DNA from: Dyadobacter sp. 50-39 | Lineage (GTDB): Bacteria; Bacteroidota; Bacteroidia; Cytophagales; Spirosomataceae | Assembly (NCBI GenBank): GCA_001898145.1 | Contig: MKSR01000017.1 | Coordinates: 102,430-166,429, forward strand | Length of the DNA stretch: 64,000 nucleotides | Direction: 5' to 3' | Shown: positions 1,672 to 32,703 of the stretch, one piece after another | How the letters are laid out: every line of letters begins with the position of its first letter | How positions within the stretch are numbered: the first letter of the stretch is position 1 | Translations under genes and position numbers: made by a program | Notes under the pieces: generated by a model | Seen by the model: only the letters and a program-made list of their open reading frames with translations | What the model was told of the DNA's origin: nothing | Database searches by the model: none

Positions 1672-4600
1672 TTAATCCTCCTGGTTTTTTGGGGGAAACA
1701 GTTGACTCAAAAGCTCGCTGAGCTCAGTGAGGTCTATCGGCTTCACCAGATGACCGTCGAAGCCCGACTGCCGGGTCCGCTTTTTATCGTCGGACTGCCC
1801 GTACCCGGTAAGTGCTATCACGGCGATCTTGCGGCCATCGGGGCGGTTCCTGATTTGTTTGGCGGTTTCGAATCCATCCATTCCGGGCATCGAGATATCC
1901 AGCAACACAACCTCGGCAGGCTGGCGTTCAAGCAATGCCAGCGCCTCGGGGCCGTCGTAGCTTACCGTGGCGTGGTGCCCCTGATGCGTGAGGATCATCG
2001 CCAGGGTATCGGCCGCATCGCGGTTATCATCTACCACCAGTATCTCCCGCGGCCTGGCTCTGACTGTTTTTTCGATGGCCGGGGGCACAAATTCCACAGG
2101 CACTTCGAGATAAGGTAAATGAACCAGGAACTCGCTCCCTTGTCCCAGGCCGCTGCTTTTAGCCTCCACCCTGCCCCCATGCATTTCCACCAGCTGTTTC
2201 ACCAATGTCAAGCCCAGGCCCAGGCCCCCGTCCGCCCGCTTCGGCGACGAGTTAACTTGTGCGAAGAGCTCGAAAATGGCCTCGAACTGGTCCGAAGTGA
2301 GCCCTATACCGTCGTCTTTTACGCTCAGCAAAAGCTCGTTCCCCGTCTGTTCGAGCGCGACCCACACATGGCCGTTCTCCTGCGTGAACCGGACTCCGTT
2401 GGTAAGGAGGTTGGTTATCACCTGCGTCAGCCTGGTAACATCGCCGTTCAGATACAATGGTGTATTGGGCAATGTCAATGTCAAATGCCTGTTTCCGGAT
2501 TCATACAATGCGGTAGTTGCCTCCACGGCATCTGCCACCAGCTTGCAAAGTTCCACCTGCTCGCGCCTCAGTTCTATTTTTCCACGGCTGATACGGCTCA
2601 CATCGAGCAGATCGTCTACCAGCCTCACCAGGTGATCCACCTGCCGGTTCATCATCGCCACCGACGCGCTCACGCGCTCGTCATCCCCCGAAGTCATTTT
2701 CATGATCTGCAGCGTGTTGCGCACGGGTGCAAGCGGGTTACGGAGCTCGTGGGCGAGCATGGCCAGAAACTCGTCCTTCCGCCTGTCGGCCTCCCGCAAG
2801 GCTTCCTCGGCCGCCTTGGGGCCGGTAATGTCAACAAATGTGAGTACGACGCCGTTAATGCGGTCTTCGGCAGTGCGGTACGGTAATATCCGCATTATGA
2901 ACACCCGTCCATCCGTGCTTCTAACTTCCCGCTCGACGGTTTGTAATTTACTCAGCACTAGCTCGGCATCCTCTTGTAAATGTGCGTAGTCAAGGCGGTT
3001 GGTAATGTCCGACAGCGGGCGGCCGAAGTCCGCCGGGATCAGGTTGAATATTTCACGCGTCGATGGGGTGAACAAGTTTACGCGAAAGCTGCGATCGAGG
3101 AACAGCGTGGCCATGTTCGTGGAATTGATCAGGTTCTGAAGATTGTTGCTGGTCAGCGAAATCTCATCCACCTTCACTTTCAACTCCTGGTTAATGGTCG
3201 TCAGCTCTTCATTGATCGATTGCAGTTCCTCCTTGCTCGTTTCCAGTTCTTCTGCCGCAGAGCGAAGCTCTTCGTTAATCGCCTGCAATTCCTCATTCGA
3301 AGCTTTCAGTTCCTCGGCCTGCACCTCGTGCTGTTCGTTGGAAGTACGCAGCTGGGCTTTCACACGGATCAGTTCCTCTTCCAGGTGCCGCGCCATCGGT
3401 TCTACGGACGTCAGCACCCCTTCATGATCACTCGCCTCGCCCACTTGCTGAAATAACACCAGAATAAATCCCCTCGCCGGGTCACGCTCACGCAAGACCG
3501 GGCGCACATGGATGGTGATGGTTTCCGTACGGTCCTCCATCCTGATTTTCAGGGTGCGGGCTTCGACATTGGTCTGCTGCTGGACCGCCTGGTAAAAGGC
3601 CGTCCGGAGTTCCAGCCGGAGTTCGGGACGGATCAGTTTCAGGAGATTCTTGCTGGGCTCCCCGCCTGCGATCTGCAGGTAGCGGCCTGCCCGCTCCGTG
3701 AGATGCAATATTTCGTATTCCTCATTGACAATGATTGAGGGGGGCGCATATTGTTCCAAAAGCTGCTGATGCAGGTCCCCGAAGCTCATCCGCACGCCCG
3801 AACGCGCCTCCATTTCAGCCACCGGCTGCGCGACGCTTCTCTTTTCAGGAATGAATTGCGGGATCGTCTCAGGCACCGGGTACGAACGGCTCGACACCTG
3901 CCTGCTTTGGTACAAATGGTTTTCGCGGCTCACATTGACATACAAATCACTCGATCCGTCGACCGTTTCCGACATACCGAGCCACAGGTACGCACCCGGC
4001 TTCAATGCAAAATGAAAGGTTTCCATAGCCCTCTCCTGCGCCGTCTGGTTCAGGTAAATGAGCATGTTGCGGCAGGTAACCAGGTCGAGCTGGGAAAATG
4101 GCGGGTCTTTAAGCACATTATGGCGGGCAAAAAGTACCATTTCCCGTATTTCGCGGCGTACGCGGTACTCGTCCCCATCACGGGTAAAAAACCGCCGCAG
4201 CCGTTCGGGCGACACATCGACGGCGTCGTTGAGGTTGTATTTTCCCTCCCGTGCAATCGAAATGGCTGCCTCGTCGATATCAGTCGCAAAAATCTGGACC
4301 TTGGGTGCGTCCAGAATCCCGGAAGTCTTCTCGGCACAAAGCATTGCCAGCGAATAGGCTTCCTCCCCCGTAGCACACCCGGCGACCCAGATCCGCAGGG
4401 TATGTTCCTGGCTTTTCCCTTTCATCAAAAGCGGCAGTATTTCCTGCTCGATGGCCAAAAAGGCGCGGCTGTCCCGGAAAAAATTGGTTACCGAGATCAG
4501 CAGGTTTTTGAGCAGTGCCTGCGTTTCGTCCGGATGCTCACGCATGTAGGCCACGTAGGCGGGGAGGTTGGGCAGGTTCAGGACATTGATCCGCCGCTCG

Positions 4601-5346
4601 ATCCGCCGCATGAGGGTCGGCCTCTTGTAGTTTGAAAAATCATGTCCGGTGCGCATCCGAAGTTGCGTGAACACCTCCCGGAGCGCCTGCTGCTGGTCGG
4701 GCGGGCGTGTTTCCGGCTCCACCGTGATAGCAACTGTCCCCAGTCCGCGACGATAGGATAACAGGTTGGCGGGAATCTGCGCCACAGGCAGGATATTGTC
4801 GACGAGCTCGGTAGCAATGGCATTGCGCGGCATTTCATTAAAAGCCGCTTCTCTCGGATTCTGCACAAATGTAGCGCCGCCATATTCCTTGATCCTTTTG
4901 AGGCCCATGGACCCGTTGGCCCCGGTACCCGACAGGATTACCGCCACGCTTCGTTCCTTGTACGACTCAGCCAGCATCCGGAAAAATACGTCCACCGGTG
5001 CGCGCCGGTCCTCGCTGGCGACGTGCGCAAAGGCCGAAACACGGCCTTTCTCTATCTCTACGTGCCCTGCGGCCGGAAGGATATAGATATGATCCGGAGC
5101 GATGGTTTGCGATCCCGCCACCAGGGTTACCGGTAGTTTTGCAACTTTCCCGAGCACATCGGCAAGGCTGATATCCAGGTCGGGGCTCAGATGCAGCATA
5201 ATAAGATACGCCAGGCCGGTGTGGGCCGGTACATGCTCAAAAAATTCCGTCAGTGCCTCCATGCCTCCCGCCGAGGCTCCGATTCCGGCGACGAGCATCT
5301 GATGCTTGGAAACCTTGTCAGGGGAATCCGGGGTAGGGTCTATCAT
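1672..5346 (-). CDS. CheB-CheR-PAS hybrid histidine kinase with C-terminal receiver domain
   Basis: 1224 residues with many domains. An N-terminal CheB methylesterase domain (residues ~15-195) has GIGASAGG with the catalytic Ser near 25 and LSGTGANGS. A CheR methyltransferase domain (~215-490) has WVAGCATGEEAYSLAM for S-adenosylmethionine binding and TCRNMLIYL. A long heptad coiled coil (~660-725) is rich in EELQ/EEL. A PAS domain follows, then HisKA with MLAHELRNPLAPVRN (phospho-His), a HATPase with NLLTNGVRFT, DDGIGL and GGLGLGL, and a receiver domain with VVDDN, VVLLDISMPGMDG and the conserved Lys in LVKP. This chemotaxis-fusion architecture is known in several phyla and probably links adaptation-type methyl transfer to phosphorelay signalling; the signal is unknown. 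It has no transmembrane segments. It is downstream of a stand-alone CheB gene (29-bp gap) and upstream of the ankyrin gene. Confidence 0.93.
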   Translation of the reverse strand: MIDPTPDSPDKVSKHQMLVAGIGASAGGMEALTEFFEHVPAHTGLAYLIMLHLSPDLDISLADVLGKVAKLPVTLVAGSQTIAPDHIYILPAAGHVEIEKGRVSAFAHVASEDRRAPVDVFFRMLAESYKERSVAVILSGTGANGSMGLKRIKEYGGATFVQNPREAAFNEMPRNAIATELVDNILPVAQIPANLLSYRRGLGTVAITVEPETRPPDQQQALREVFTQLRMRTGHDFSNYKRPTLMRRIERRINVLNLPNLPAYVAYMREHPDETQALLKNLLISVTNFFRDSRAFLAIEQEILPLLMKGKSQEHTLRIWVAGCATGEEAYSLAMLCAEKTSGILDAPKVQIFATDIDEAAISIAREGKYNLNDAVDVSPERLRRFFTRDGDEYRVRREIREMVLFARHNVLKDPPFSQLDLVTCRNMLIYLNQTAQERAMETFHFALKPGAYLWLGMSETVDGSSDLYVNVSRENHLYQSRQVSSRSYPVPETIPQFIPEKRSVAQPVAEMEARSGVRMSFGDLHQQLLEQYAPPSIIVNEEYEILHLTERAGRYLQIAGGEPSKNLLKLIRPELRLELRTAFYQAVQQQTNVEARTLKIRMEDRTETITIHVRPVLRERDPARGFILVLFQQVGEASDHEGVLTSVEPMARHLEEELIRVKAQLRTSNEQHEVQAEELKASNEELQAINEELRSAAEELETSKEELQSINEELTTINQELKVKVDEISLTSNNLQNLINSTNMATLFLDRSFRVNLFTPSTREIFNLIPADFGRPLSDITNRLDYAHLQEDAELVLSKLQTVEREVRSTDGRVFIMRILPYRTAEDRINGVVLTFVDITGPKAAEEALREADRRKDEFLAMLAHELRNPLAPVRNTLQIMKMTSGDDERVSASVAMMNRQVDHLVRLVDDLLDVSRISRGKIELRREQVELCKLVADAVEATTALYESGNRHLTLTLPNTPLYLNGDVTRLTQVITNLLTNGVRFTQENGHVWVALEQTGNELLLSVKDDGIGLTSDQFEAIFELFAQVNSSPKRADGGLGLGLTLVKQLVEMHGGRVEAKSSGLGQGSEFLVHLPYLEVPVEFVPPAIEKTVRARPREILVVDDNRDAADTLAMILTHQGHHATVSYDGPEALALLERQPAEVVLLDISMPGMDGFETAKQIRNRPDGRKIAVIALTGYGQSDDKKRTRQSGFDGHLVKPIDLTELSELLSQLFPPKNQED

Positions 5347-5375
5347 ATCTCAATAACTATATCTCAATCCAAATG

Positions 5376-6404
5376 TCAAAGCCGCTCTTCCGACGCCCTT
5401 ACCAGCTCACGGTCCTCACTGGCGCGGATGGCGTCTCTGATCGAGGCCACACGCTGCCTGGCTTCACGGGCTTTTCTGAAATAGCGGGCTGCTTCCTTCC
5501 GGTGGTTGGCTTCTGCAAAATGATCACCCATGTGGTTGAGCAGGATCACCTGTTCATCCACTCCCCTGAGTGCCGCAAACAGGTAATTTTCGATTTTCTC
5601 GGAAATGGCTTCCATGAGCGCTTCCGGCGAAAATGCGTGCCCGGTATGGCAGCGGAAGCGCGAGAGCGCACCATCTTTTAGTAACGTAAGAACACCCTGA
5701 CATTCAGGACAAGAGAGCTTGCTCATTTCCCCGTATTGAGGAATATCGACATCGAACGTCGGCTCATCCGACGCTACGCGCACTTCCGCACCCATCTTAT
5801 CGAGTTCTCCGGCGTCTACCTCCGGGCCGCTGCCAATGCTTTCATTGCAGAGCTTCACCAGCAATGCGGCCATTTCCGAAACCGGCACAATATAGTCAAT
5901 CGCTACTTCACGAATGGCATTTTTCGGCATGGATGGCACGTCGGCGTCTGCGGGGTCCTGTGCGATCGCGATCCCCCCGCAGCGCTTGATGCTCCACAGG
6001 CCAGCCGTGCCATCGTCCAGCGCCCCGGTGAGCACAACGCCGATCACGCGGTTGCCGAATGCATAGGCCGCCGACCGGAACAGCGGGTCTATTGCAGGCC
6101 GGAACCGGTTCTCGCGCGGCCCGCGCGTAACGTGCACATGCGTGCGATCGACCAGCAAATGGTGGTCGGGCCGTGCCACGTAAATGCGGTTCGGCAATAT
6201 CGGCTCGCCATGCTCGGCCTGGGCAACGGGAAGGTGTGCTATATCATCCAATACCTTCGCCAATATGCCTTCTGCGTGCGGCGACATATGCCATACCAGG
6301 AAAATGGAAGCTCCTATGTCTGCCGGCAATTCGGCGACCAGTTTCTTGAATGCCTCGAAGCCCCCGAGCGAGGCTCCTACTACGATGATGTTTCGAGTAG
6401 CCAT
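5376..6404 (-). CDS. cheB: Stand-alone chemotaxis methylesterase CheB-type protein with zinc-ribbon tail
   Basis: 342 residues from ATG 6404 (MATRNIIVVGASLGG). An upstream extension of the frame would run into the SMR gene, so it was rejected. The catalytic domain of CheB has the Ser in GASLGGF, the His region in WHMSPHAEG and the Asp-side motif LTGALDDGTAGL. No receiver domain precedes it, which is typical of the CheB family outside canonical chemotaxis clusters. From about residue 235 there is a Cys/His cluster (CPECQG ... CHTGHAF) that looks like a zinc ribbon, then a helical tail. Function by family: protein-glutamate methylesterase/deamidase. It is first in the operon with the CheB-CheR-kinase fusion and the ankyrin gene. 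Confidence 0.88.
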   Translation of the reverse strand: MATRNIIVVGASLGGFEAFKKLVAELPADIGASIFLVWHMSPHAEGILAKVLDDIAHLPVAQAEHGEPILPNRIYVARPDHHLLVDRTHVHVTRGPRENRFRPAIDPLFRSAAYAFGNRVIGVVLTGALDDGTAGLWSIKRCGGIAIAQDPADADVPSMPKNAIREVAIDYIVPVSEMAALLVKLCNESIGSGPEVDAGELDKMGAEVRVASDEPTFDVDIPQYGEMSKLSCPECQGVLTLLKDGALSRFRCHTGHAFSPEALMEAISEKIENYLFAALRGVDEQVILLNHMGDHFAEANHRKEAARYFRKAREARQRVASIRDAIRASEDRELVRASEERL

Positions 6405-6459
6405 AAATCTCTGCGGATGGTGAACAGCATTTCCTGAAAATAGCGTGCCCCGCAGTCCG

Positions 6460-6789
6460 TCAATGCTCCGAAACCATTTTGAGCCCGGCGATGGAGAGAA
6501 TGAGCGTGGTAATGAAAAATAGCCGCCAAAAACTGACGGGATCTTTAAATACCAATATCCCCACCAGCACCGTGCCCACTGCACCAATGCCCGTCCAGAC
6601 CGCGTAGGCCGTTCCTATCGGCAGCGTTTGGGTTGCTTTCAGCAGCAAGGCCATGCTGATGGTCATAGAAATGATGAACCCGGTAAACCACAGGTACATT
6701 TCCGTTCCGCTTGTCTCACGGACTTTTCCTAAACAGGAAGCGAACCCGACTTCGAACAAGCCGGCGATGATCAAAATAATCCAGTTCAT
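6460..6789 (-). CDS. sugE: SMR-family exporter, SugE/Gdx (guanidinium) type
   Basis: 109 residues from ATG 6789 (MNWIILIIAGLFEVGFA); a longer TTG start at 6810 is less likely. There are four hydrophobic helices. The essential membrane Glu is at position 13 (AGLFE), and the motif LPIGTAYAVWTGIGAVG is highly characteristic of SugE/Gdx proteins rather than EmrE-type multidrug pumps. Function by family: proton-coupled export of guanidinium and small guanidinyl compounds, working as a dual-topology dimer. The gene is alone; the Crp-type regulator sits 72 bp upstream on the same strand. No guanidine riboswitch could be recognised by eye in that gap. Confidence 0.9.
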   Translation of the reverse strand: MNWIILIIAGLFEVGFASCLGKVRETSGTEMYLWFTGFIISMTISMALLLKATQTLPIGTAYAVWTGIGAVGTVLVGILVFKDPVSFWRLFFITTLILSIAGLKMVSEH

Positions 6790-6861
6790 AACACGCTGTT
6801 TTTCTGACAAAGGTCCAGCGCCGGATCGGGAAAAAATTTTACAAATGATAAAAAGGAAACA

Positions 6862-7425
6862 CTACCTGATTTCCGCACGAATGCGGCTCAGGCTCACTTG
6901 TGTGATCCCGAGGAAAGAAGCGATATGTGACAGCGGCACACGGTGGAGCAGATCCGGCGTTGTGCTCATTAAATCCAGGTACCTTTGCTGTGCGGTTTTG
7001 AACTGCATGGAAATGAGCCGTTCTTCGGTTTTGATCATTTCCTGCCCGATGAGTTTGCGGCCCCAGTTGGCAATGTGAATGTCGCTGGCGAAAAGTGCTT
7101 CCAGATCCTGGGACCTCATCTGATACAAGTCGCAGGCTTCCAGGGTTTCGATATGCTCGTAACCCGGCTGGCCGGCCACATAGCTTTTCATCGAAAGCAC
7201 TACGTCGCCTTCTTTTCCAAACCAGAACGTCACATCCCCGCGGTCGACATCGGAGTAGGCGCGAACGATGCCGCTGCGGACAAAATAGAGCATTTTCTCT
7301 ACCCTACCGGCGCGGATGAGCGTGTGTCCTTTCGGAAACTTTACCGGGTTTATCCGCGCTTTCAATGCCTCCCTGGATTGCGCCGGCAGCGGGTAAAAAT
7401 GTTCCAGGATTTCATCTATTTCCAT
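6862..7425 (-). CDS. Crp/Fnr-family transcriptional regulator
   Basis: 187 residues. The N-terminal cyclic-nucleotide-binding-like beta-roll spans ~10-125 (FPKGHTLIRAG, LYFVRSGIVRAY, FWFGKEGDVV). The C-terminal winged-helix segment has RVPLSHIASFLGITQVSLSRIRAEI, where the recognition helix resembles the common Bacteroidota Crp-like regulators (ASYLGITPETLSRIR). The Arg-Ser phosphate-binding pair of true cAMP receptors is not evident, so the ligand is unknown. It starts 6 bp after the stop of the DUF4180 gene on the same strand and may control the SMR exporter downstream, which is an inference from position only. Confidence 0.88.
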   Translation of the reverse strand: MEIDEILEHFYPLPAQSREALKARINPVKFPKGHTLIRAGRVEKMLYFVRSGIVRAYSDVDRGDVTFWFGKEGDVVLSMKSYVAGQPGYEHIETLEACDLYQMRSQDLEALFASDIHIANWGRKLIGQEMIKTEERLISMQFKTAQQRYLDLMSTTPDLLHRVPLSHIASFLGITQVSLSRIRAEIR

Positions 7426-7431
7426 AACTAG

Positions 7432-7791
7432 CTAGCTCGACAACCTGCCAATAGCCTCTTCCACCGTAGGTACGAAGCTGATCTGCCTCCCCTTATTGCT
7501 TTCAAAGATAAAATCCCGCAGGCTTTTGCTGTCGTATTGCGCAAAGTCGCCCACGATAGCCAGCCTGACGCGGTAGGTCGCGAACTTTTGCAGAATTTCC
7601 CCGGCGATACCCGTTTTTAAATCAAAAAAAGAGGGCGTAATATTTCGTTCGTGCAGGATCATTTCCCCGTAACCCTGGTAGTACAGGTCAACCATCAGTT
7701 GCAGCCCGTCGTCGGGTGTGCGGATGAGCATTTCGTCGGATACAATTTCCGCGATTGCGGTGTCGTGCGGTTGATGTCTTTGAATTTTCAT
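7432..7791 (-). CDS. DUF4180 domain-containing protein
   Basis: 119 residues matching the DUF4180 family in length and pattern: an opening MKIQ strand, ISDEMLIRTPDDGLQLMVDLYYQG, a central FFDLKTGIAGEILQKFATYRVRLAIVGDF, and an end with IGRLSS. The function of the family is not established. It is cytoplasmic, with no signal or membrane segment. It lies immediately upstream of the Crp-type regulator (6-bp gap), so the two are probably co-transcribed. Confidence 0.85.
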   Translation of the reverse strand: MKIQRHQPHDTAIAEIVSDEMLIRTPDDGLQLMVDLYYQGYGEMILHERNITPSFFDLKTGIAGEILQKFATYRVRLAIVGDFAQYDSKSLRDFIFESNKGRQISFVPTVEEAIGRLSS

Positions 7792-8222
7792 GGCAAAAAG
7801 CAGCTACCCGGTTTGTTTCCGGCAGTGTGCGAAGTTAGTTAAAAACAGCTCCTGCCGGCATGCACATCGTTTGAACTTTTTCTACATTTTAAAATATTTA
7901 TTCTAATCCTTTAACCGGATTGAAAGATAAAAAGTACAAATAAGGAGCGAGTTTACCGACGCGCCGGTTCGGGTACAGCTACCACCCAATCCTAACATTG
8001 GCAGCTAGGGACCTGTAAATTCAGGTCTCAGCCAGCGATCTGCCCTCCCGTTCTGAATTGCCCGTTTACCGGGTACTTCCTGACTCAAAACTATTTTTAC
8101 AAGCCGGATAGAATAGTATTTTTACGGCAACGCCCGGGTTAATTTTCTAAACGGAATGGCAGTTGTTTGGTAGCGGATTTATCCCTAATATTCGCGTTAC
8201 GCCTCCCGAAAATTAACCTTTC
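7792..8222. other. Intergenic region between divergent DUF4180 and histidine kinase genes
   Basis: 431 bp without a convincing gene. It should hold the two divergent promoters. A short dyad (gacctg-taaatt-caggtc, about 8010-8027) and an A+T-rich patch (7865-7945) are visible. No clean TTG/TAnnTTTG pair could be assigned. Confidence 0.5.
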
Positions 8223-9835
8223 ATGACACCGGAAACCGTTCCTCTCCGCACGATAGATCACGACCATATTCCGCTGTGCCGCCCGGCCGCGGTGCCTTCC
8301 GGGGTAGCCCAGGCAAGCCCCCCGGAACAGGTGACGGATTTTTTCGGAGGGATTTTCAGCACTGCCGACTGGCCCGCGCGCTGGTACTGCGGGTCGTGGT
8401 CCGATTTCCATGGGTGGCTGTACATCATTTCCGACGTACTTATCTGGGCTGCTTACTTTCTGATACCCATTTTTCTCATACGGTTCATCCTCAGCAGAAA
8501 GGATTTCCCCTTCCCTAACACGATCTGGCTTTTCGTTGCATTCATCCTCTTCTGCGGCGCCACGCATTTGATCGACGCATTGATCTTCTGGGTGCCGGTG
8601 TACCGTTTCAGTGCGCTGGTCAGGTTTTGTACCGCCATCATCTCGCTTACCACGGTTTATTACCTGTTCAGGATTTTCCCAATGTGCTTTTGCTCCGGTC
8701 GGTTTCGGATTTACAGCGTGAAATCGACGATCGGATTTCCGTGGAAGAAAAGCTCGCAGAAAGTGAGTTCCTCCTCACTGCGGCCGGCAATGTGGGCAAG
8801 CTGGGCGGCTGGGAATACGACCCTGCCACGGGACAATTCAGCTGGACAGCTACCTGCCGCAATATCCTGCAAACGGACGAAGAAAGTGTCCGGAACGAGA
8901 GCGATCTGCTGCGCTTTTTCGCCGAGCCCTATCAGCTGATCATCCGCGCCGCCCTGCATGAATCGACCGCGCTCGGGCATTCGTGGGACCATGAATTACA
9001 GCTTACCACGCGCGACGGCATCCGAAAATGGGTCCGTTTTTCCGCTACACCCCTGCTCAATGCCGAAGGACAGGTCAGCAAAATCAGGGGCATTATCATG
9101 GATATCGACCGCTACAAAACGCTGGAACTGAAACTGGTGAAGTCGATCGACCAGATGGCACAGAAAAACAGCCAGTTGCAGAGCTTTACGCACATTCTTT
9201 CCCATAACCTGCGGAATCATTCAAGCAATATTGCCTTGCTGGCCGACTTCGTGGACGAGTCGACGCTCACCAAAGACAATGAGGAGCTTTTTCAGAAAAT
9301 CAAAACGGTATCAAAGCATTTGAACGGCACGCTGGACGACCTTTCGCAGGTGATCAAGATCCGTGACAACCAGCTCGAAGGAGAGCAGTTGAATATCCGG
9401 GAGGTCACCAGGCAGGTGCTCAGCGTGCTGGACGAAAGCCTGCATACGAGCCAGGCGGAAATCGCAATGGATTTTCAGGAAGAGGAAATCTTTTTTCCAC
9501 GCATTTACCTGGAAAGCATCCTGATGAACCTGCTCTCCAATGGTATCAAGTACAAAAAGGACCATGAACACCCGCTGATGCGGCTGCGGTTTTATCGCAG
9601 CAAAACAGGTCTCAAAGTACTGGAATATAGCGATCAGGGGAAGGGAATCGACCTGTCGCTCCATGCCGACAAGATATTCGGATTGTATAAAACTTTCCAT
9701 AAACACGAAGATGCTCATGGAGTTGGGTTATTTTTGATAAAAAATCAGATCGAAGCCCAGGGCGGGAACATTCAGGTATTCAGTAAAGTCGACGCGGGTA
9801 TTACCTTTAAAATTACATTTAACGAAAATGCTTGA
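8223..9835 (+). CDS. Ethylene-receptor-like membrane histidine kinase, reading frame interrupted by a -1 shift
   Basis: Two overlapping frames make one protein of about 537 residues. The first frame (from ATG 8223) gives three membrane helices (~65-90, 100-123, 130-152). The second frame continues from about 8676 with a coiled linker, a PAS domain (LGGWEYDPATGQFSW), HisKA (HILSHNLRNHSSN) and a HATPase (MNLLSNGIKYK, DQGKGI, GVGLFLIKN). The membrane part matches the ethylene-binding domain of plant ETR1 and SynEtr1, with D71, Y78, I81, P82, C111 and H115 in exactly the ETR1 spacing (D25, Y32, I35, P36, C65, H69). The Cys/His pair binds Cu(I) in that family. The frames join at a T-TTC-CCA heptamer (8675-8681), and a -1 step there restores the family sequence FPNVLLLRS. 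Whether this is a mutation, a sequencing deletion or recoding cannot be told from the sequence. The receiver gene overlaps the end by 8 bp. Confidence 0.8.
8675..8681 (+). other. T-TTC-CCA slippery-type heptamer at the frame junction
   Basis: In the upstream frame the codons are ATT-TTC-CCA, which fits X-XXY-YYZ. Slipping back one base re-pairs TTT and CCC and enters the frame of the kinase domains. No clear pseudoknot could be drawn by eye downstream; a missing T in the T-run is the simpler explanation. Confidence 0.4.
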
Positions 9836-10241
9836 AATACTCTGTGTAGTTGACGACGACAAGATCTTCACCTACCTGCTGAAACGTCTTATTGAAAAAG
9901 CCAAAGTTGCCCGTGAGATTATTTTTTTTGAAAACGGGCGGGAGGCCCTTGATTACCTGACCAGCCATAAGGAGGATGCGCTCAAACTCCCGCAACTGAT
10001 CCTGCTCGATATTAATATGCCCATCCTGGACGGCTGGCAGTTTTTGAACGAATACGGTAAGTTAAAACCGGATGTCCACCAGTCCATTTCGATTTGTATG
10101 ATGAGCTCTTCTTCCGAAATGGAAGACTACAACCGGGCGATGGGATCCGGATTTGTGATGGATTACCTGCAAAAACCTGTTCAGATACCCTCTCTGAAAG
10201 AAGTTACCGACCGGGTGCTGTCGTTCCTTGGTCCAAAATAG
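9828..10241 (+). CDS. Single-domain response regulator (receiver)
   Basis: 137 residues forming one receiver domain. The acidic triad is VVDDDK near residue 10, the phospho-acceptor Asp is in LILLDINMPILDG, the conserved Ser/Thr region is MMSSSS, and the Lys is in YLQKPV. No output domain is present, so it passes phosphoryl groups on or acts by protein contact. Its ATG lies within the last codons of the ethylene-receptor-like kinase (8-bp overlap), which indicates translational coupling and makes it the cognate partner. This type of small receiver is common beside PAS-kinases in Bacteroidota. Confidence 0.92.
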   Translation: MLEILCVVDDDKIFTYLLKRLIEKAKVAREIIFFENGREALDYLTSHKEDALKLPQLILLDINMPILDGWQFLNEYGKLKPDVHQSISICMMSSSSEMEDYNRAMGSGFVMDYLQKPVQIPSLKEVTDRVLSFLGPK

Positions 10242-10258
10242 CCTGCGACTCGCTATTT

Positions 10259-11380
10259 TTGCCTTTTAACCAAAATGAATCTGCCCTGCCATTCCGTATC
10301 CTGATAACGCCCTTGGACTGGGGACTGGGACATGCCACGCGCTGTATCCCCGTCATCCGCTACTTTATGGAGCAGGGGTGCATGGTTACAATTGCCGCCT
10401 CGGGTGCGACTGCATTGCTTTTAAAAGAGAACTTTCCCGGCATCCCTCAATTGCAGCTTCCGGGTTACGGCATTACATACAGCCGCAGCGGCCGCAGTTT
10501 TGCCCCGAAAATCATCGCCCAGATCCCCAAAATCCTCCGCGCGATCCGGCGCGAGCGGCAGTGGCTCCGCGAAATGCAGGCTGTGCACCGGTTCGACCTC
10601 GTCGTTTCCGACAACCGCTACGGATTGAAGATCGACGGGCTACCCTCGGTGATTATGACGCATCAGCTGCAAATTATGACCGGCTTCGGCCCGACAGCCG
10701 ACTATCTGATGCGAAAGATGCATTATAGCCTGCTTGAAAAATTCGATGCATGCTGGGTGGTAGATGAGCCGGAAAACAGCGGACTGGCCGGGGCCTTGTC
10801 GCACCCTCGCAAATTACCTGCAAATCCACAATACATGGGACTGCTTTCGCAGCTCGTGCCCGACGGGAAGCTCCCTCTCCAAACCGGCCCGCTCCTGGTA
10901 CTGCTATCCGGCCCGGAGCCGATGCGCGGCATTCTGGAAAACAAGATACTCGGACAGATTCGTGGACTTGAAGACCATCGGTTCCATATCGTGGCAGGAA
11001 ACCCTTCGGGCGCCGTGCCCGCTCATTTGCCCTCACACGTTACATATGCCACCCATGCGAACGCACGCGAACTGGCGACGGCGCTTGCCACTACGCCGCT
11101 GGTGATCTGCCGGAGCGGCTACTCTACGCTGATGGACCTGGCGATGCTCGGTAAAAAGGCTTTGCTGATCCCCACACCCGGCCAGTCGGAACAGGAGTAC
11201 CTGGCCCGGCATTTAAAAGCGCAGGGCACGGCATTCAGCATTCGGCAGGCGGAAATGGATTTGAAAAAAGACATTGCCGAAGCATTGAATTACAAAGGGT
11301 TCGAAATGCTGGCGTACTCCGCCAGGCATTCGCTCATGCAGCAGGTCATCGATCGCGCGCTCGGCCAGCTCCAAAACTAG
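10259..11380 (+). CDS. Glycosyltransferase, GT28/MurG-like superfamily (start uncertain)
   Basis: The recognisable protein begins FRILITPLDWGLGHATRCIP, a typical N-terminal nucleotide-sugar transferase loop. It ends with a GT-B C-terminal half (LVICRSGYSTLMDLAMLGKKALLIPTPGQSEQEYLA) like the UDP-GlcNAc transferases of the MurG/Glyco_tran_28_C type. It is about 370 residues and cytoplasmic or membrane-peripheral; the acceptor is unknown. The frame has no ATG in a sensible place: the first in-frame ATG sits deep inside the receiver gene at 10094, and the nearest plausible start is TTG 10259. An ATG at 10275 is one base out of frame, and adding one C to the CCC run at about 10283 would give MNLPLPFRILITP, so a one-base deletion or sequence error is possible. 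Confidence 0.78.
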   Translation: MPFNQNESALPFRILITPLDWGLGHATRCIPVIRYFMEQGCMVTIAASGATALLLKENFPGIPQLQLPGYGITYSRSGRSFAPKIIAQIPKILRAIRRERQWLREMQAVHRFDLVVSDNRYGLKIDGLPSVIMTHQLQIMTGFGPTADYLMRKMHYSLLEKFDACWVVDEPENSGLAGALSHPRKLPANPQYMGLLSQLVPDGKLPLQTGPLLVLLSGPEPMRGILENKILGQIRGLEDHRFHIVAGNPSGAVPAHLPSHVTYATHANARELATALATTPLVICRSGYSTLMDLAMLGKKALLIPTPGQSEQEYLARHLKAQGTAFSIRQAEMDLKKDIAEALNYKGFEMLAYSARHSLMQQVIDRALGQLQN

Positions 11381-11573
11381 CGGTTGTTTTTTCTATCTTT
11401 ACGGTTACAAATCACCACCCCTATACGTTGTGTATGCCTAAACCTCTGCTTTACCTGCTGGTAACAGCGTCTGTTGCACGGTAGGCCACCAGCATGTTTA
11501 CGTTAAACATTGTACGATATTTTCATTTTTTTGACTTTATTCTACCTTTGTATCAGGAAAACCGGAAAGGAAT

Positions 11574-12146
11574 TTGGGCCGACTTTTATCACTCCTGCTT
11601 TTTGGACTATTACTCTATAACATGATGGGCTACTCTGTGCTCTATCTGTGGGAAGAGCATGACGTTCCTATGGCGGTCGGCACAGGGCATATCGAGCGCA
11701 ACGGGTTTTCACGTGACATTGTCATGAAAGTGCCGGTGTCCCTGCCCTACCAGACCGACTGGTCCACTCCCGAGCCCTCGGAAGGGGGTATCAGGCATGA
11801 GGGCGAGTACTACCAGATCCGGACGAAACAGCTTTTGAACGACACGCTCTACGTTTACTGCGAATACGACCAGAATGCCCGGGACCGGTTCATGGAGCTT
11901 GCCGACCATATCCGGTACGACACCGAGAGTCCTGCACCCAGAAGCCACGCCAAGCTGCTTAAATTCTTTCTGAAAGAGTATATGTCTTCCCCGCGGGAGC
12001 ATGTCTTTTTCGTCACGGAATGGATCGAATCAACGCCATCCGCAATCGATCAATATGATCGTACAGTTTCCGAAACCTGCCGCATTGCCCCAACACCGCC
12101 GCCTGACGGACTGCCTACCCGGACAATTGTTTTTTACGCTTCGTAA
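11574..12146 (+). CDS. Hypothetical protein with N-terminal membrane anchor or signal peptide
   Basis: 190 residues from a TTG start (11574) preceded by an AAAGGA ribosome-binding-like sequence. The N-terminus (LLSLLLFGLLLYNMMGYSVLYLW) is one hydrophobic segment, either an uncleaved anchor or a signal peptide. The rest is acidic and soluble, with MKVPVSLPYQTDW, EGEYYQIRTKQLLNDTLYVYCEYDQNARDRF and LLKFFLKEY. I do not recognise a family. It lies 65 bp upstream of an outer membrane protein gene on the same strand and may share its transcript. Confidence 0.72.
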   Translation: MGRLLSLLLFGLLLYNMMGYSVLYLWEEHDVPMAVGTGHIERNGFSRDIVMKVPVSLPYQTDWSTPEPSEGGIRHEGEYYQIRTKQLLNDTLYVYCEYDQNARDRFMELADHIRYDTESPAPRSHAKLLKFFLKEYMSSPREHVFFVTEWIESTPSAIDQYDRTVSETCRIAPTPPPDGLPTRTIVFYAS

Positions 12147-12211
12147 TCCTGCCTTTTTCGCGGGAGTGTGAAAGCGCTTACTCAACCTCAGGTACATTCA
12201 CCAAATCCGTA

Positions 12212-13327
12212 ATGAAAACATTATTACAATCGGCCGCCGCATTGCTGTTATCGCTTTGCGCCGCCCAAAATACATTTTCACAAGGCTGCGTTGCGATCCG
12301 CGGCACCGGCAATGCATGTATGATCGCACACGCCGACAGCAACAACCACAGCCAGTGGGTGGCCAGCATTAGCGGCCGCTATTTCAAATCCTTCCGCCAC
12401 TTCTCCGGCCCGAATGAGAACAAGGAGCGCCTTGTCCAGCACACGGAGGTAATCAACCATACGGCGTCGGTGGATATCAACATTATGCGCATTCTGAACG
12501 ATCGCTGGTCGCTGATGGTCGATCTGCCGATCATTTCAAATGCGCGTTCCTCGCTGTACGAGCACGGGCTGGTGAATGGCGCCAACAAATTCAACGAGCG
12601 CCACAGCATGCATTCCTTCGGTATCGGCGACCTGCGCATTGCCGCCTACCACTGGCTTTTCGATCCAAAAAAGAGCTACCGCGGTAATATCCAGGTGGGT
12701 TTGGGCATCAAGCTGCCGACGGGAGATTATGACTACCAGGATTACTGGTACAATGTGGGCCCTAATGGCGCCAAGGAGCTTCGGACAGTCGACCAGTCCA
12801 TTCAGCTCGGCGACGGGGGAACCGGTGTTTCCGTGGAGCTGAACACGTATTACAACATTTTCCACAACTTTGGCATGTACGGCAACTTCTACTACCTCGT
12901 AAACCCACGCGAGCAGAACGGTGTACGCACCTATCGCGAGACGCTCTCACCACGCCTTGCCAACGAAGCCATTATGAGCGTGCCCGACCAGTATATGGCG
13001 CGCGGCGGTTTCAGCTACTCGCTGAACCCATTTGTAAAAGGCTGGGCCGTATCGGCTGGCGCGCGCCTCGAAGGCATTCCCGTTCACGACCTCGTAGGCG
13101 GCAGCGGCGATTTCCGCCGGCCGGGCTACGTGTGGAGCGTGGAGCCGGGCATCACCTATTCGGGGCAGAAATTCAGCTTCTTCGCAACGGTACCGGTCGC
13201 ATTCGTCAGAAACCGCACGCAAAGTGTGACAGACAAGGAATATTCCGACAAGACCGGCGTATTTACGCGCGGAGATGCCGCATTTGCCGACTATTCAATC
13301 AATGCCGGTGTTTCCTTCAAGTTCTGA
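12212..13327 (+). CDS. Outer membrane beta-barrel (transporter-like) protein
   Basis: 371 residues. A signal peptide (MKTLLQSAAALLLSLCAAQNTFSQ) is followed by repeated amphipathic strands with aromatic girdle residues, and the last residue is Phe (GVSFKF), as is usual for barrels inserted by BAM. Segments such as DRWSLMVDLPIISN, GNIQVGLGIKLPTGDYDYQ and ARGGFSYSLNPFVKGWAVSAGARLEG fit the transporter/phenol-degradation-like outer membrane families of Bacteroidota. Four Cys residues occur near the mature N-terminus and just beyond (QGCVAIRGTGNACM). The substrate is unknown. The gene is followed by a strong hairpin terminator shared with the convergent DJ-1 gene. Confidence 0.8.
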   Translation: MKTLLQSAAALLLSLCAAQNTFSQGCVAIRGTGNACMIAHADSNNHSQWVASISGRYFKSFRHFSGPNENKERLVQHTEVINHTASVDINIMRILNDRWSLMVDLPIISNARSSLYEHGLVNGANKFNERHSMHSFGIGDLRIAAYHWLFDPKKSYRGNIQVGLGIKLPTGDYDYQDYWYNVGPNGAKELRTVDQSIQLGDGGTGVSVELNTYYNIFHNFGMYGNFYYLVNPREQNGVRTYRETLSPRLANEAIMSVPDQYMARGGFSYSLNPFVKGWAVSAGARLEGIPVHDLVGGSGDFRRPGYVWSVEPGITYSGQKFSFFATVPVAFVRNRTQSVTDKEYSDKTGVFTRGDAAFADYSINAGVSFKF

Positions 13328-13347
13328 TTCATTGTAATACCCATACA

Positions 13348-13380
13348 AAAGGCCGGACTTGCGACGCAAGTCCGGCCTTT
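13348..13380. terminator. Bidirectional hairpin terminator
   Basis: A perfect 16-bp inverted repeat (13348-13363 and 13365-13380, GC-rich core ggccggacttgcg) flanked by A and T runs. It lies between convergent stop codons at 13327 and 13397. Confidence 0.92.
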
Positions 13381-13396
13381 CTGCTTAAAAACTTCC

Positions 13397-13978
13397 TTAA
13401 ATACCGCTGATCTGAACGCCCAGCAATTTATAGAACTCTTTCAGAATCGCGGGATGGCCGGGCCATGCGGGCGACGTTACCAGGTTACCGTCCACCACTG
13501 CCTGATCTGCGGGAATATTCTTCCAGGTTCCGCCCGCAAGTTCAATATCCGGGCCCACAGCCACATACGCCGTCAGCGTACGGCCTTGCAAAACTTTTGC
13601 AGCAGTGAGGATCTGAATACCGTGACAAATGGCAGCTACGGGCTTGTTAGTCTCGAAAAAGTGGCGGGTAATTTCCAGCACACGCTTGTTGAGCCGTGTG
13701 TATTCGGGCGCGCGACCTCCCGCAATGTAAAGTCCGTCGTAGTCGGCAGGATTAATGCTGTCGAAATCGGCTGTGATCGCGAAACGGTGCCCCTGGGTTT
13801 CCTTGTAGGTCTGATCACCTACGAAATCATGAACAGCGGTTGGGACCGTGTCACCTTTGTGACGATCGGGAGCGAGCGTATCCACTTCAAATCCAACAGA
13901 CAACAGCGCCTGGTAAGGCACCATAGCCTCGTAATCTTCCACATAATCGCCTGCAAGCAACAGAATTTTCTTCGACAT
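13397..13978 (-). CDS. DJ-1/PfpI family protein
   Basis: 193 residues with one class I glutamine-amidotransferase-like domain. The nucleophile elbow AAICHGIQ places Cys118 and His119, the conserved acidic residue is near the N-terminus ([11 protein letters not shown], Glu14), and a GGRAPEY oxyanion region is present. Members act as proteases, glyoxalases/deglycases or chaperones against carbonyl stress, and the exact activity cannot be assigned. It is a monocistronic unit on the minus strand, convergent with the outer membrane protein gene. Confidence 0.9.
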
Positions 13979-25919: not shown

Positions 25920-27665
25920 CTATGCATGTTCGCTTACTTCCGCAGCCGTCAATTTGAAATAAAAAGTACTTCCTGCGCCCACTTCGCTTTCAACGCCTAT
26001 TTCACCGCCCTGTGCTTCAATGAATTCCTTGCTGATAGCCAGCCCCAGGCCGGTTCCGGATTTCGGACTGCCCGGCACCTGAAAATACCGGTTGAATATC
26101 TTTTCCCGGTACTTTTTGTCGATCCCCTGCCCGTGATCTGTTACCGAAAAGCGTACCTGCTGGCCATGGGAGGCAATGGCAATGGTAATTTCTGTCCCCT
26201 CTCCCGAGTAGCGAATGGCATTGGTCAGAAAGTTAATGAGTACCCAGGCTGTTTTTTCAAGATCGGCCCTCACTGCCGGTAACCCGGGCTCTATTTGGGC
26301 AGCGAGGGCAACCTTTTTCTGATCGGCCTGGAACCGGACCGCGTCATGCGCATAATGCCAGATTTCCTCAGGCCGGGCCGTCTGGATGTTAAGTTGAATG
26401 TTGCCGGTTTCCACCTGCGACATATTCAAAAGCTCACCCGTTATTTTAAGCAGCCGCTCACTGTCTTCCCGGATCGACTCGATCAGCTGCGATTGCTCAT
26501 GGTTCACCGCTCCGATGCGCGGAGATTGGAGGAGGTCGAGGCTCATTTTAATAGACGATATCGGCGTTTTGAGCTCGTGGGAAACCGTAGCGATGAAGTT
26601 GGTCTTGGCGGAGTCAAGCTCTTTAAATGGGGTAATGTTTTTCAAAAGAATAACCTTGCCAATGCGGACGCGCTCCTTTTCTCCGGTTGGCAGGATGGTG
26701 ATGTCGATGACTTCCTTTTCAAAATAGCTTTCCTTATCATCCGCGTATATTTTAAGCAGATTGGCCTCTTTTTGCAATGCGGCCTCCCCGCTTCCGTTCG
26801 GGCCGGTCAGCGTCCGGATCAGGTCGTTTCTTTCCGAAAGCTCCTGAACCGACCGTCCTATCATTTCGCTCATAGACAAGCCGGTAATCTTGATCGCCTC
26901 CTGATTGGCAAACAGCACAATGCCCTTCTGATCGAGACTTATCACCGGCTCATGCATATTGTTGATCAGCGCTTCCGTTCTCTTTTTCTCGATTAACAGC
27001 CGTGCCAGATTGCTGTCGTCGTATTCTTCCAGTTTTTCGGCCATAGCATTGAACGACTGCCCGAGCTGGCCGAATTCGTCCCGGCGGTCGAAACGTACCC
27101 GGCGCGAGTAGTTCTTTGCGGCTATCTGCCGGATACTTTCGCTCAGCTCGGCAATAGGGTTGGCGATATTGCCGGGCAAGTTGACAAAAAGCGTGAGGGA
27201 AATGATCGTGCAGGCCGTAGCGGTGAGCACAATCCAGAGAATGGCCGTAGCAACCGTGCCATTCGCCACATCGTTTTTTGCCCTGATTGCCTCCATATTG
27301 ATTTTGACCAAACCGAGAATGTCCTTCCGAAGCAATGCCGGAAGCGTGTCGGGCCGCGCGCTGGTACCAAGCAGGTGGAAATGCTTCCTGATCTGCTCCG
27401 TCGCCTGCCCCTCACCGGGCTCGGTGAGATTGCCGAACTGCCTTTGCAGATTCTGCTCAAAGGACGCTCTCGCCGAAGGCCGTCCGATTTCATCCAGGGC
27501 CAGCATCATGTTTCTGGAACATTCCAGCGTATTGTAGTTATCGGCCAGGATGTTCGCTGTGTCGTCTTTGAGCTTGTACACATTTCGCGAGGCCACGAGC
27601 GATTGCAGCAGGATCAGCACAAACAGCAGCCCCAGGCTCAACCTCAATTTTGGTTTAATACTCAT
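25920..27665 (-). CDS. Sensor histidine kinase of the kdp operon (HAMP-PAS-HisKA-HATPase)
   Basis: 581 residues. Domains in order: membrane helix (~8-26), extracytoplasmic sensor region (~27-140), second helix (~143-167), HAMP (NPIAELSESIRQIAAKNYSRR), PAS (~235-350), HisKA with phospho-His in FIATVSHELKTPISS, and HATPase with LINFLTNAIRYS, DHGQGI and GTGLGLAIS. It is the last gene of the kdp operon, 19 bp after the kdpD-type gene. In E. coli the Kdp sensor and kinase are one protein; here the kinase half is separate and has gained its own periplasmic sensor, HAMP and PAS. The cognate response regulator is not next to it. Confidence 0.92.
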   Translation of the reverse strand: MSIKPKLRLSLGLLFVLILLQSLVASRNVYKLKDDTANILADNYNTLECSRNMMLALDEIGRPSARASFEQNLQRQFGNLTEPGEGQATEQIRKHFHLLGTSARPDTLPALLRKDILGLVKINMEAIRAKNDVANGTVATAILWIVLTATACTIISLTLFVNLPGNIANPIAELSESIRQIAAKNYSRRVRFDRRDEFGQLGQSFNAMAEKLEEYDDSNLARLLIEKKRTEALINNMHEPVISLDQKGIVLFANQEAIKITGLSMSEMIGRSVQELSERNDLIRTLTGPNGSGEAALQKEANLLKIYADDKESYFEKEVIDITILPTGEKERVRIGKVILLKNITPFKELDSAKTNFIATVSHELKTPISSIKMSLDLLQSPRIGAVNHEQSQLIESIREDSERLLKITGELLNMSQVETGNIQLNIQTARPEEIWHYAHDAVRFQADQKKVALAAQIEPGLPAVRADLEKTAWVLINFLTNAIRYSGEGTEITIAIASHGQQVRFSVTDHGQGIDKKYREKIFNRYFQVPGSPKSGTGLGLAISKEFIEAQGGEIGVESEVGAGSTFYFKLTAAEVSEHA

Positions 27666-27684
27666 TATTTGAAAGGGAAATGGC

Positions 27685-28809
27685 TCACGACAAAATGACC
27701 AGGTCGATGTCTGAGCTGGTTAACTTCTTCAAAAGATTGTTGAACAGGTTGGTCGCCATGATCACCCTGATCAGCGTGATATGCGGCTTGCCGATGCAAA
27801 TGGTGGTCACCTGCTTTTCTTCGGCCGTTTCGATGATCGCCCGGGATATGTTGGGGCTTGACACGCGCACGATCTCCGCCCCCATTTCGGTAGCCAGCTT
27901 GAAATTATTGATCAGGTGCCGCTGCTTGTCGAGCGGTATCCGGTCGCGGCTCTCCCGAGGCGTTTGGACATAGAGCAGCAGCCATTTACTGTTGTAATAG
28001 CTTGCCAGGCGGGCCGTCTTCCGGATCACGTGCTTGGCCGTCACCTCGTTGGAACTGATGCAGGCCAGAAATTTCTCCCGGCGCTGCGCGACCATTTTCG
28101 GCACTTCCGTATCCACCTTCCGCTCCACCTGGCTCGCCACCTCTTTCAATGCCAGCTCGCGCAGTTGCAGGATATGGTCGGACCTGAAGAAGTTCGTCAA
28201 TGCGGTCTGGATCTTGTCGGACCGGTATATTTTCCCTTCTTTCAGGCGTGTGATCAGTTCGTCGGCCGTAAGGTCTATATTCACCACCTCGTCGGCGGCC
28301 GCCAGCACGCTGTCGGGAATGCGCTCCCGCACCTCCACGCCGGTAATTTGCTTTATTTCTTCATTGAGGCTTTCGATATGCTGAATATTCACCGCACTGA
28401 TCACATTAATGCCTGCATCGAGGATTTCCATCACATCCTGCCAGCGCTTTTCATTTTTGCTGCCTTCGATATTGGTGTGGGCCAGTTCGTCGATGACCAC
28501 AATCTCCGGCCTGAGACCGATCACCGCCGGCATATCGAGCTCTTCCAGCTCCTTACCTTTGTAAAATAGCCGGCGCCTCGGGATCAGCGGCAACCCTTCC
28601 AGTAACTCGTGCGTTTCCTTCCGGTGATGGGTTTCGATGAAGCCGATCTTGACGTCTATCCCGTTTCGGAGCAAGGTATGCGCCTCCTGAAGCATGCGGT
28701 AAGTCTTGCCCACGCCTGCGCTCATCCCGATGTATATTTTAAACTTCCCCCTTCGGGATTTTTTGATCAATTCCAGGAAGTGTTGGGCATTGGGGCTGGT
28801 CTCTGACAT
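27685..28809 (-). CDS. kdpD: KdpD-type sensor protein lacking the kinase domain (KdpD N-terminal + USP domains)
   Basis: 374 residues from ATG 28809 (MSETSPNAQHF); a 15-residue upstream extension is unlikely. It starts with the KdpD domain: Walker-A-like YIGMSAGVGKTYRML, IGFIETHHRKET, and VVIDELAHTN. The second half is a universal-stress-protein-like domain (~225-370) with WLLLYVQTP and ICIGKPH. Membrane helices and the catalytic histidine kinase half of E. coli KdpD are absent. It is presumed to sense K+/ATP or c-di-AMP and to work with the kinase encoded 19 bp downstream; this is inference from family and context. Confidence 0.93.
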   Translation of the reverse strand: MSETSPNAQHFLELIKKSRRGKFKIYIGMSAGVGKTYRMLQEAHTLLRNGIDVKIGFIETHHRKETHELLEGLPLIPRRRLFYKGKELEELDMPAVIGLRPEIVVIDELAHTNIEGSKNEKRWQDVMEILDAGINVISAVNIQHIESLNEEIKQITGVEVRERIPDSVLAAADEVVNIDLTADELITRLKEGKIYRSDKIQTALTNFFRSDHILQLRELALKEVASQVERKVDTEVPKMVAQRREKFLACISSNEVTAKHVIRKTARLASYYNSKWLLLYVQTPRESRDRIPLDKQRHLINNFKLATEMGAEIVRVSSPNISRAIIETAEEKQVTTICIGKPHITLIRVIMATNLFNNLLKKLTSSDIDLVILS

Positions 28810-28910
28810 AGCGGATCCGGGTGGTGGGTGGGAAACCAACAGCCTTTCGGGCATTTACCCGAAAGGATTTGGCATGATAGCTGCTGCTGGCAGTATGATG
28901 TATTAATTTA

Positions 28911-29996
28911 CTAAAATGAAACGGCGAGTGAGGTGGTCAGGAAAGTATTGCTCTTGCCGAATGCGCCATCCCGTTCTGCGAAGACCGCATCCTTGCTTGA
29001 AAGCGTCCGGGCTTCAACCCGCCAGAGCACATTCGCCATCACCGCATAGTCCACATTGGCCGAGAAACCCCAGGTCTTAAAGCCTTCGGGCGTGCCGGTC
29101 GCAATGATTACGCCTTTCTCATCCTGAAAGTATTCCCCTCTCACCGCCACATTTACTTTTGAAGCCGGCGAATAACGGACAATCATCACCGGCACCAGCC
29201 AGCGGTTATAGCTGCTGCTACCCTTCTGCTTTTGCTCAGTACCATAGTCGAACCCTGCGGTAATGCCCCATTGGTCACTGACCTGAAAAACACCGTATAC
29301 ATTATGGTAATAACGCATTTGCCGCACGCTGTCAGGCTTATCGCTTCCGACGAAAGTGCTGTAATTGAGGGTCAATGCCGCCGAAGGTTTATAGGTAATT
29401 TGCGTACCAAATGCCGGGGTCGTGTTCCCGTCTACCCGCTGAATACGCTGCCATCCGTTCAAATACAGCGCTGCCAGGTACAATTTGCCGTCGTCCGTCG
29501 TATAGTTCAGCTTCGCGCCCGCTTCGAAATAGGGCGAGTTTTCTGCGACCAGGCTGCGGGTCAGCGTCCAGTTATCCTTGCCGATGGCGCTCTCAAATCC
29601 GATATGGGAAGGCATAATGCCCGCATCAAGCCAGAGATTGGCCTTTTTGGCCAGCTTGATCCCGGCATTGGCCTCGTAGATATTGCGCAGCACGCCCGGT
29701 TCGGCAGCATAATTGGCATTCATATAGGTACCCACAGCCAGCGCAAGATTCGCCCGCACGCGCTCGCTGGTATATGCGCCGCGGATGAATCCGAGGTTCA
29801 GGTTCACTTCGCCGGCACGGTTGAAATTGTACAGGAACGACGGGGTCGTGTTTTGCACAGGACGGTTAAAATCATGGTTATAGTAAGCTTCCAGGTACCC
29901 GCCGACCGAAAACGACGGCGTGGTACTGGTAGAATCCTGGGCCTGGGCGGTTTGGAAAAAGGCCAGCGCCGAGGCCATCAAGAGTAGTTTTTTCAT
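28911..29996 (-). CDS. Outer membrane porin of the kdp operon (OmpL/BBP2-like)
   Basis: 361 residues from ATG 29996 (MKKLLLMASALAFF). It has a clean signal peptide ending TAQAQDS, many amphipathic beta strands (VGGYLEAYYNHDFNRP, YFEAGAKLNYTTDDGKLYLAALYLNGWQRI, RYSPASKVNVAVRGEYFQDEKG) and a C-terminal Phe (TTSLAVSF). It resembles the putative OmpL-like beta-barrel porin-2 family often placed in Bacteroidota kdp loci. It presumably lets K+ cross the outer membrane when the medium is K+-poor. It lies between kdpC and the kdpD-type gene on the same strand. Confidence 0.88.
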   Translation of the reverse strand: MKKLLLMASALAFFQTAQAQDSTSTTPSFSVGGYLEAYYNHDFNRPVQNTTPSFLYNFNRAGEVNLNLGFIRGAYTSERVRANLALAVGTYMNANYAAEPGVLRNIYEANAGIKLAKKANLWLDAGIMPSHIGFESAIGKDNWTLTRSLVAENSPYFEAGAKLNYTTDDGKLYLAALYLNGWQRIQRVDGNTTPAFGTQITYKPSAALTLNYSTFVGSDKPDSVRQMRYYHNVYGVFQVSDQWGITAGFDYGTEQKQKGSSSYNRWLVPVMIVRYSPASKVNVAVRGEYFQDEKGVIIATGTPEGFKTWGFSANVDYAVMANVLWRVEARTLSSKDAVFAERDGAFGKSNTFLTTSLAVSF

Positions 29997-30041
29997 TGTA
30001 TCAAAAATTATAAAAGAACTGAAAGCTGCCAGCAACAGCAC

Positions 30042-30602: not shown

Positions 30603-30651
30603 TGTTTTAATGTCTGATGTTGTGAAATGCGACCGCTGTTCCGGCCGGCTG

Positions 30652-32691: not shown

Positions 32692-32703
32692 TTCAATGGG
32701 ATA

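Follow-up and report, generated by a model that had tools for sequence, protein, structure and literature searches.

According to PMC11819568, a cyanobacterium and Azospirillum are bacteria in which functional ethylene receptors have been demonstrated. For the AzoEtr1/AzoRR system of Azospirillum brasilense, the same paper reports measured, saturable ethylene binding as well as an influence on biofilm and on root colonization (PMC11819568). AzoEtr1 (NZ_CP012915.1) comprises 525 aa counted from the first Met, and AzoRR 135 aa. SynEtr1 (slr1212) of Synechocystis, as described in PMC11819568 and PMC7700396, likewise couples an ethylene-binding sensor to a histidine kinase in a phosphorelay plan; the response regulator of this system is a transcriptional activator of the small RNA csiR1, and the receptor also senses light. 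In Arabidopsis ETR1, D25, C65, and H69 are named as binding residues, and plant receptors are described as signaling mainly independently of kinase activity (PMC11819568).

The 64,000-nucleotide stretch of Dyadobacter sp. 50-39 DNA analyzed here (hereafter, the window) contains a locus with the layout of AzoEtr1/AzoRR-etr1, that is, an ethylene-binding-type domain, a PAS domain, and a histidine kinase (EBD-PAS-HK, ~530 aa) followed by a single-domain receiver (~135 aa) without an output domain, except that the window copy is frameshifted. The lack of an output domain distinguishes the window receiver from the SynEtr1 response regulator; Arabidopsis ETR1 differs in its kinase output. We read the locus as a disrupted AzoEtr1-type operon, the intact relatives of which would sense ethylene or a similar small pi-ligand via Cu(I), and assign this reading a probability of roughly 0.55.

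Sensor domain and its distribution

Residues 63-154 of the open reading frame (ORF) starting at position 8223 match the Pfam family ETR1_N (PF25487) with E=1.9e-31 (108.7 bits, cut-off 27) over profile positions 2-93 of 97, nearly the whole domain, and a search of 14 control genomes for the same family returned zero matches. In the alignment, D71, Y78, I81, P82, C111, and H115 correspond to D25, Y32, I35, P36, C65, and H69 at the spacing of ETR1, and I108 corresponds to I62, so that all seven of what we take to be the ETR1 binding residues are present; in addition, R134 occupies the position of ETR1 K91. The alignment consists of 60 rows, namely 58 unique relatives, the window, and ETR1. The preliminary description of this DNA, made from the letters alone, had proposed an ETR1-type sensor and listed six of these residues; both proposals are borne out by the profile search and the alignment, the seventh residue, I108, having gone unlisted.

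On the forward strand, the putative ligand-site codons lie within 8433..8567 (D71, 8433; Y78, 8454; I81, 8463; P82, 8466; I108, 8544; C111, 8553; H115, 8565). The three-helix membrane domain itself, delimited by the profile match and a structure model, occupies 8409..8681 (+) and follows an N-terminal extension of 62 residues (8223..8408, +), which has a similar length in Dyadobacter relatives and the first ~30 residues of which are modeled with low confidence. Three long helices are predicted at residues 61-91, 98-120, and 127-151 (AlphaFold with 26 sequences; mean pLDDT 82.6). Searches of solved structures with the sensor yielded no match by sequence at E<=1 and none by fold at E<=0.001, leaving the model with no independent structural check of whether the resemblance to ETR1_N arose by chance; chance is, however, an exceedingly improbable explanation, refuted in practice by the strength of the profile match, the seven of seven residues, and the zero matches in the control genomes. 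Judged by its sequence, the 8223 ORF holds a genuine ethylene-receptor-type sensor domain, a type with precedents in other bacteria.

The comparison with AzoEtr1 separates the parts of the protein. All seven binding residues are common to the two sensors, as is a basic residue at the same position (K98 in AzoEtr1, R134 in the window), whereas the identity is 40% over 88 residues and the Dyadobacter protein has 36 extra residues before the first binding residue (D71 versus D35). A tblastn search at E 0.1 with the PAS, kinase, and receiver of the window found nothing in the AzoEtr1 locus. The sensor is therefore homologous in the two systems, whereas the other parts, within the reach of this search, have only their architecture in common, so that any similarity of output logic is one of plan.

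Within the genus, 34 matches to PF25487 were found in 33 of 48 Dyadobacter genomes, including that of the window; no such gene was found in the other 15 (14 of the 47 genomes that are at least 90% complete). Among the 29 of 33 other genus matches that were retrieved for comparison, the Asp, Cys, and His are invariably kept (29/29); with this conservation and the highly significant profile match, the proposal withstands the sequence-level refutation criteria of the preliminary description. One relative has Phe at Y32. A receiver gene lies directly behind the kinase in 27 of the 29, the remaining two loci (L003 and L015) having none within the 310-370 nt covered behind the kinase. The former (L003:1321-2976) is one of two receptor genes in its genome (G007) and encodes a different, ordinary HisKA kinase, with no receiver in the 310 nt behind it.

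Beyond the genus, the domain was detected in 21 of 395 genomes of a phylum sample, the window's genome included. Among the 27 named loci are Dyadobacter species, with identities ranging from 91% to 62%, D. endophyticus being one named relative that carries the receptor gene, as well as Pedobacter, Flexithrix, Fulvivirga, and others, with one match each in Planctomycetota, Phycisphaerales, and an unassigned metagenome-assembled genome (MAG). Of 76 loci, one (L078) was too distant and was left out of the residue alignment. Asp is retained at D25 in 52 of the 58 unique domains, Cys at C65 in 57, and His at H69 in 55, with the C65 gap and one of the three H69 departures belonging to a single genome, G418. 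In this genome, from another genus of the same family, helix 1 of the domain (L126:8211-8516) is interrupted by an in-frame TGA at the position of a Trp in the window, which makes this a second disrupted copy. At three loci from Chitinophagales and other Bacteroidota MAGs (L051, L052, and L054), Tyr replaces the copper-ligand His in the alignment.

Kinase, receiver, and the break in the reading frame

The PAS domain and histidine kinase are encoded by an ORF at 8627-9835, in a frame different from that of the sensor ORF. The PAS domain (8840..9097, +) scores just under the PAS_3 cut-off (2.6e-5, 24.9 bits versus 25.6) and is 76-80% identical to the nearest PAS-containing relatives; judging from three of the 29 Dyadobacter receptors, of 403-416 aa and without a PAS match (L012, L017, and L030), it looks dispensable. 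The dimerization and phosphoacceptor helix (9176..9361, +; HisKA E=0.12, below the cut-off) carries the H-box SHNLRNHSSNI, with the phospho-His codon at 9203, and is followed by the HATPase_c catalytic domain (9506..9823, +; E=2.7e-11). The kinase motifs SHNLR, LLSNG, GKGID, and GVGLFL, which we take to be the H-box, N-box, and ATP-lid glycine motifs, are all present. SHN[LI]RNH recurs in 27 of the 29 Dyadobacter relatives, 16 of which are identical over the 11 residues of the H-box. The H-box of the window (9200-9232) is unusual in carrying Asn-His; most HisKA domains have Pro near this position. The single-domain response regulator (9828..10241, +; 137 aa; PF00072, 1.9e-17), with D61 as the likely phosphoacceptor, starts 8 nt before the end of the kinase stop.

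The sensor ORF stops out of frame at 8939 and is 240 aa long, versus 404-554 aa for the 33 other PF25487 matches in the genus. The shift maps to a short T/C run at 8674..8681 (+), in which the relatives used for comparison have, net, one base more. In the sensor frame, the junction is ATT TTC CCA ATG in the window, whereas Dyadobacter relatives read I-F-P-N-V or similar and continue into the kinase. The ORF translation then runs out of frame for 85 residues to the stop (8682..8939, +). The junction was compared at 58 loci, two of which represent the gene of the window itself and several of which are duplicates of a genome obtained by two routes; the sensor frame is open across the junction in all 56 others, including three distant loci with frames of 254-309 aa and no kinase match (L055-L057). 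Sensor and histidine kinase are therefore not encoded in one polypeptide in the window, whereas a domain scan finds them in one in the Dyadobacter relatives L003, L012, and L032. The preliminary description had suggested that ethylene or a similar molecule is sensed through this kinase and the receiver next to it. The receptor family and the binding residues were named correctly, and the adjacent receiver is conserved; because a net one-base frameshift parts the sensor from the PAS domain and kinase, sensing through this kinase does not follow.

Between the window and seven relatives, dN/dS is 0.052 for the sensor core, 0.066 for the PAS, 0.039 for the kinase, and 0.039 for the receiver, versus 0.041, 0.055, 0.051, and 0.053, respectively, among the relatives, and 0.118 versus 0.084 for the whole N-terminus plus sensor, in a test that is rough given synonymous sites near saturation. 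The gene pieces thus show no decay, which fits both a recent mutation and a sequencing or assembly error. Under the latter explanation, the gene would be intact and work as in the relatives; the location of the site within a short homopolymer run and the absence of any further stop in either piece are also in keeping with it, and we regard it as a substantial possibility, short of the favored one. It is opposed by the otherwise clean appearance of the assembly, in which this gene alone among 24 window genes has a frameshift-like break, one seen against each of five relatives. These 24, the sensor gene included, are the matches at >=65% identity, counted from coordinates, in a comparison of ORFs of >=150 aa from the five relatives (80 kb each, 57-64 ORFs) with 419 kb of the genome; the survey thus covers genes long enough to give such ORFs, mostly within the first ~25 kb of the window, where partners were available. 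The patchy presence of the gene in the genus, where it was not found in 15 of 48 genomes, and the stop inside helix 1 in a genome from another genus of the same family also argue against an error.

Programmed -1 frameshifting at T TTC CCA (8675-8681), which would yield a short sensor-only protein together with the full receptor, is very improbable. The heptamer does have the X XXY YYZ form and lies exactly at the junction, and a -1 shift there would lead into the kinase frame; against this, no shift occurs here in any of the 56 other loci, and the RNA downstream shows no exceptional stability, its folding being equaled by 20 of 200 shuffles (z -1.31).

The window copy is, then, probably a disrupted member of the AzoEtr1-type receptor family. 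Ribosomes translating the sensor would terminate at 8939 while still ~890 nt short of the receiver start; given the 8-nt overlap of the kinase and receiver genes, translation of the receiver in the window is probably reduced. As such, the disrupted copy is a warning against inferring function from this one genome.

Proposed function of the intact relatives

In the intact relatives, the three-helix domain most likely holds Cu(I) between the Cys and His of helix 2 and binds ethylene or a similar small pi-ligand. Ligand binding would then alter autophosphorylation of the kinase and, hence, phosphotransfer to the receiver, which, having no output domain, would have to act by protein contact or in a phosphorelay. 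In the genome of the window, the net one-base frameshift just past helix 3 uncouples the sensor, so that the system is probably inactive there, provided that the base was not simply lost in assembly. We infer copper, ethylene, the direction of the response, and the receiver target, with ethylene, by homology, as our best guess for the ligand of the intact Dyadobacter gene. The open-access literature consulted describes no Bacteroidota ethylene receptor and no binding or copper data for one, which is weak evidence of absence; where it mentions an "ethylene receptor" in connection with Bacteroidetes, ACC deaminase is concerned, and the mention of Dyadobacter refers to work on tomato. ACC deaminase is itself unsupported in the window genome (best score 61 bits versus a cut-off of 392).

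The domain might instead sense Cu(I) itself, or another Cu(I) ligand, for instance CO or a different alkene, rather than ethylene, an alternative that we consider less likely than not but worth weighing. It gains from four Bacteroidota genomes in which the domain is joined to a copper-type P-ATPase in one chain (see below), as would suit a sensor of copper flux, and from the replacement of D25 in 6 and of H69 in 2 of the 58 unique domains. In Dyadobacter, however, the Asp, Cys, and His are kept in 29 of 29 members; none of the nine neighboring proteins scanned (1672-13978) belongs to a copper family by its matches, two having no match at all; KdpB accounts for the P-type ATPase encoded elsewhere in the window; and AzoEtr1, built to the same plan, is reported to bind ethylene (PMC11819568). 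Copper ATPases of family TIGR01511 do occur elsewhere in the window genome (five over the cut-off), which says little, as the family gives matches in 14 of 14 control genomes, in 13 over the cut-off. Ethylene or a similar pi-ligand accordingly stays our preferred signal for the intact genes, and a patchily distributed receptor operon with its key residues kept in Dyadobacter makes ethylene sensing readily testable in Bacteroidota.

Upstream of the sensor, DUF4180 and Crp-type genes are oppositely oriented and are found at near relatives only. A hybrid protein of CheB-CheR-PAS-HisKA-HATPase-receiver organization adjoins a separate CheB-type protein (1672-6587, -). No copper ATPase was found near the operon, the P-type ATPase of the window (30652-32703) being KdpB; kdpA, kdpB, and a histidine kinase lie close together at 25920-34392 (-).

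Fusions of a copper ATPase with ETR1_N in other Bacteroidota

Plant ETR1 receives its Cu+ from the copper ATPase RAN1, and the molecular mechanism by which receptors acquire copper is "not fully elucidated" according to a 2026 review (PMC13012798). Four Bacteroidota genomes fuse a copper-type P-ATPase and ETR1_N in one chain: G231 (L118:3439-8037), G420 (L119:5388-9986), G506 (L141), and G529 (L148:6936-11168). In G231 and G420, where the phylum-sample matches lie in 1567-aa frames, the 1532-aa ORFs comprise, in order, an HMA domain with GMTCTNC, a copper-type ATPase with ACPCA and DKTGT (TIGR01511; 560 and 561 bits, cut-off 397), ETR1_N (2.4e-30 and 3.4e-30), PAS, HisKA, and HATPase_c, with a receiver gene directly behind. 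G506, of the same genus, encodes the HMA, ATPase, and ETR1_N as a single frame on a contig that ends soon after the sensor. G529, of another family, has the whole chain and the receiver, with GITCIGC as its HMA motif and identities to G231 of 48% in the ATPase, 63% in the sensor, and 45% in the kinase. The copper assignment of G506 and G529 is by the CPC motif and similarity to G231, without a TIGR01511 scan. Occurrence in four genomes of two families indicates that the fusion is no assembly accident.

The fusions and the window gene belong to the same sensor family, and the three readable fusions have a kinase and, next door, a single receiver gene; they differ from the window gene in the copper-type ATPase within the same chain and in Asn at D25, which all four carry with the Cys and His kept. 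Because of this Asn, the fusions may not be ethylene sensors; an Asp-to-Asn receptor is nonetheless reported to be functional, with ~100-fold lower affinity (PMC13012798). We tentatively suggest, at somewhat less than even odds, that in some Bacteroidota a CopA-type Cu(I) ATPase supplies, in cis, the three-helix sensor of the PAS-kinase to which it is joined, a RAN1-to-ETR1 handover within a single chain. The sensed signal could then be copper flux or else ethylene, bound with the low affinity that Asn at D25 suggests, and the intact Dyadobacter kinases would represent the unfused, Asp-bearing, higher-affinity version. The fusions thus provide independent support for copper handling by the ETR1_N family of Bacteroidota and, should their function match their appearance, would constitute a natural one-chain model of receptor copper supply.

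No such fusion was found in the 48 Dyadobacter genomes searched, and none is the subject of a title or abstract found in the open-access literature on ethylene-binding domains with P-type ATPases or on RAN1 fusions in bacteria. At unfused loci, tblastn (E 1e-5 or 1e-3) detected no copper ATPase in the 16-kb stretches at 18 phylum loci, in 13 kb around the G499 locus, or at L149 and L150. A plasmid search with the fusion as query matched 4913 records, at least six of which cover at least 80% of the query; the best 10 of the 4913 are nine records annotated as heavy-metal ATPases or similar proteins and one unannotated record. In G231, genes for cytochrome bd subunits lie directly upstream of the fusion.
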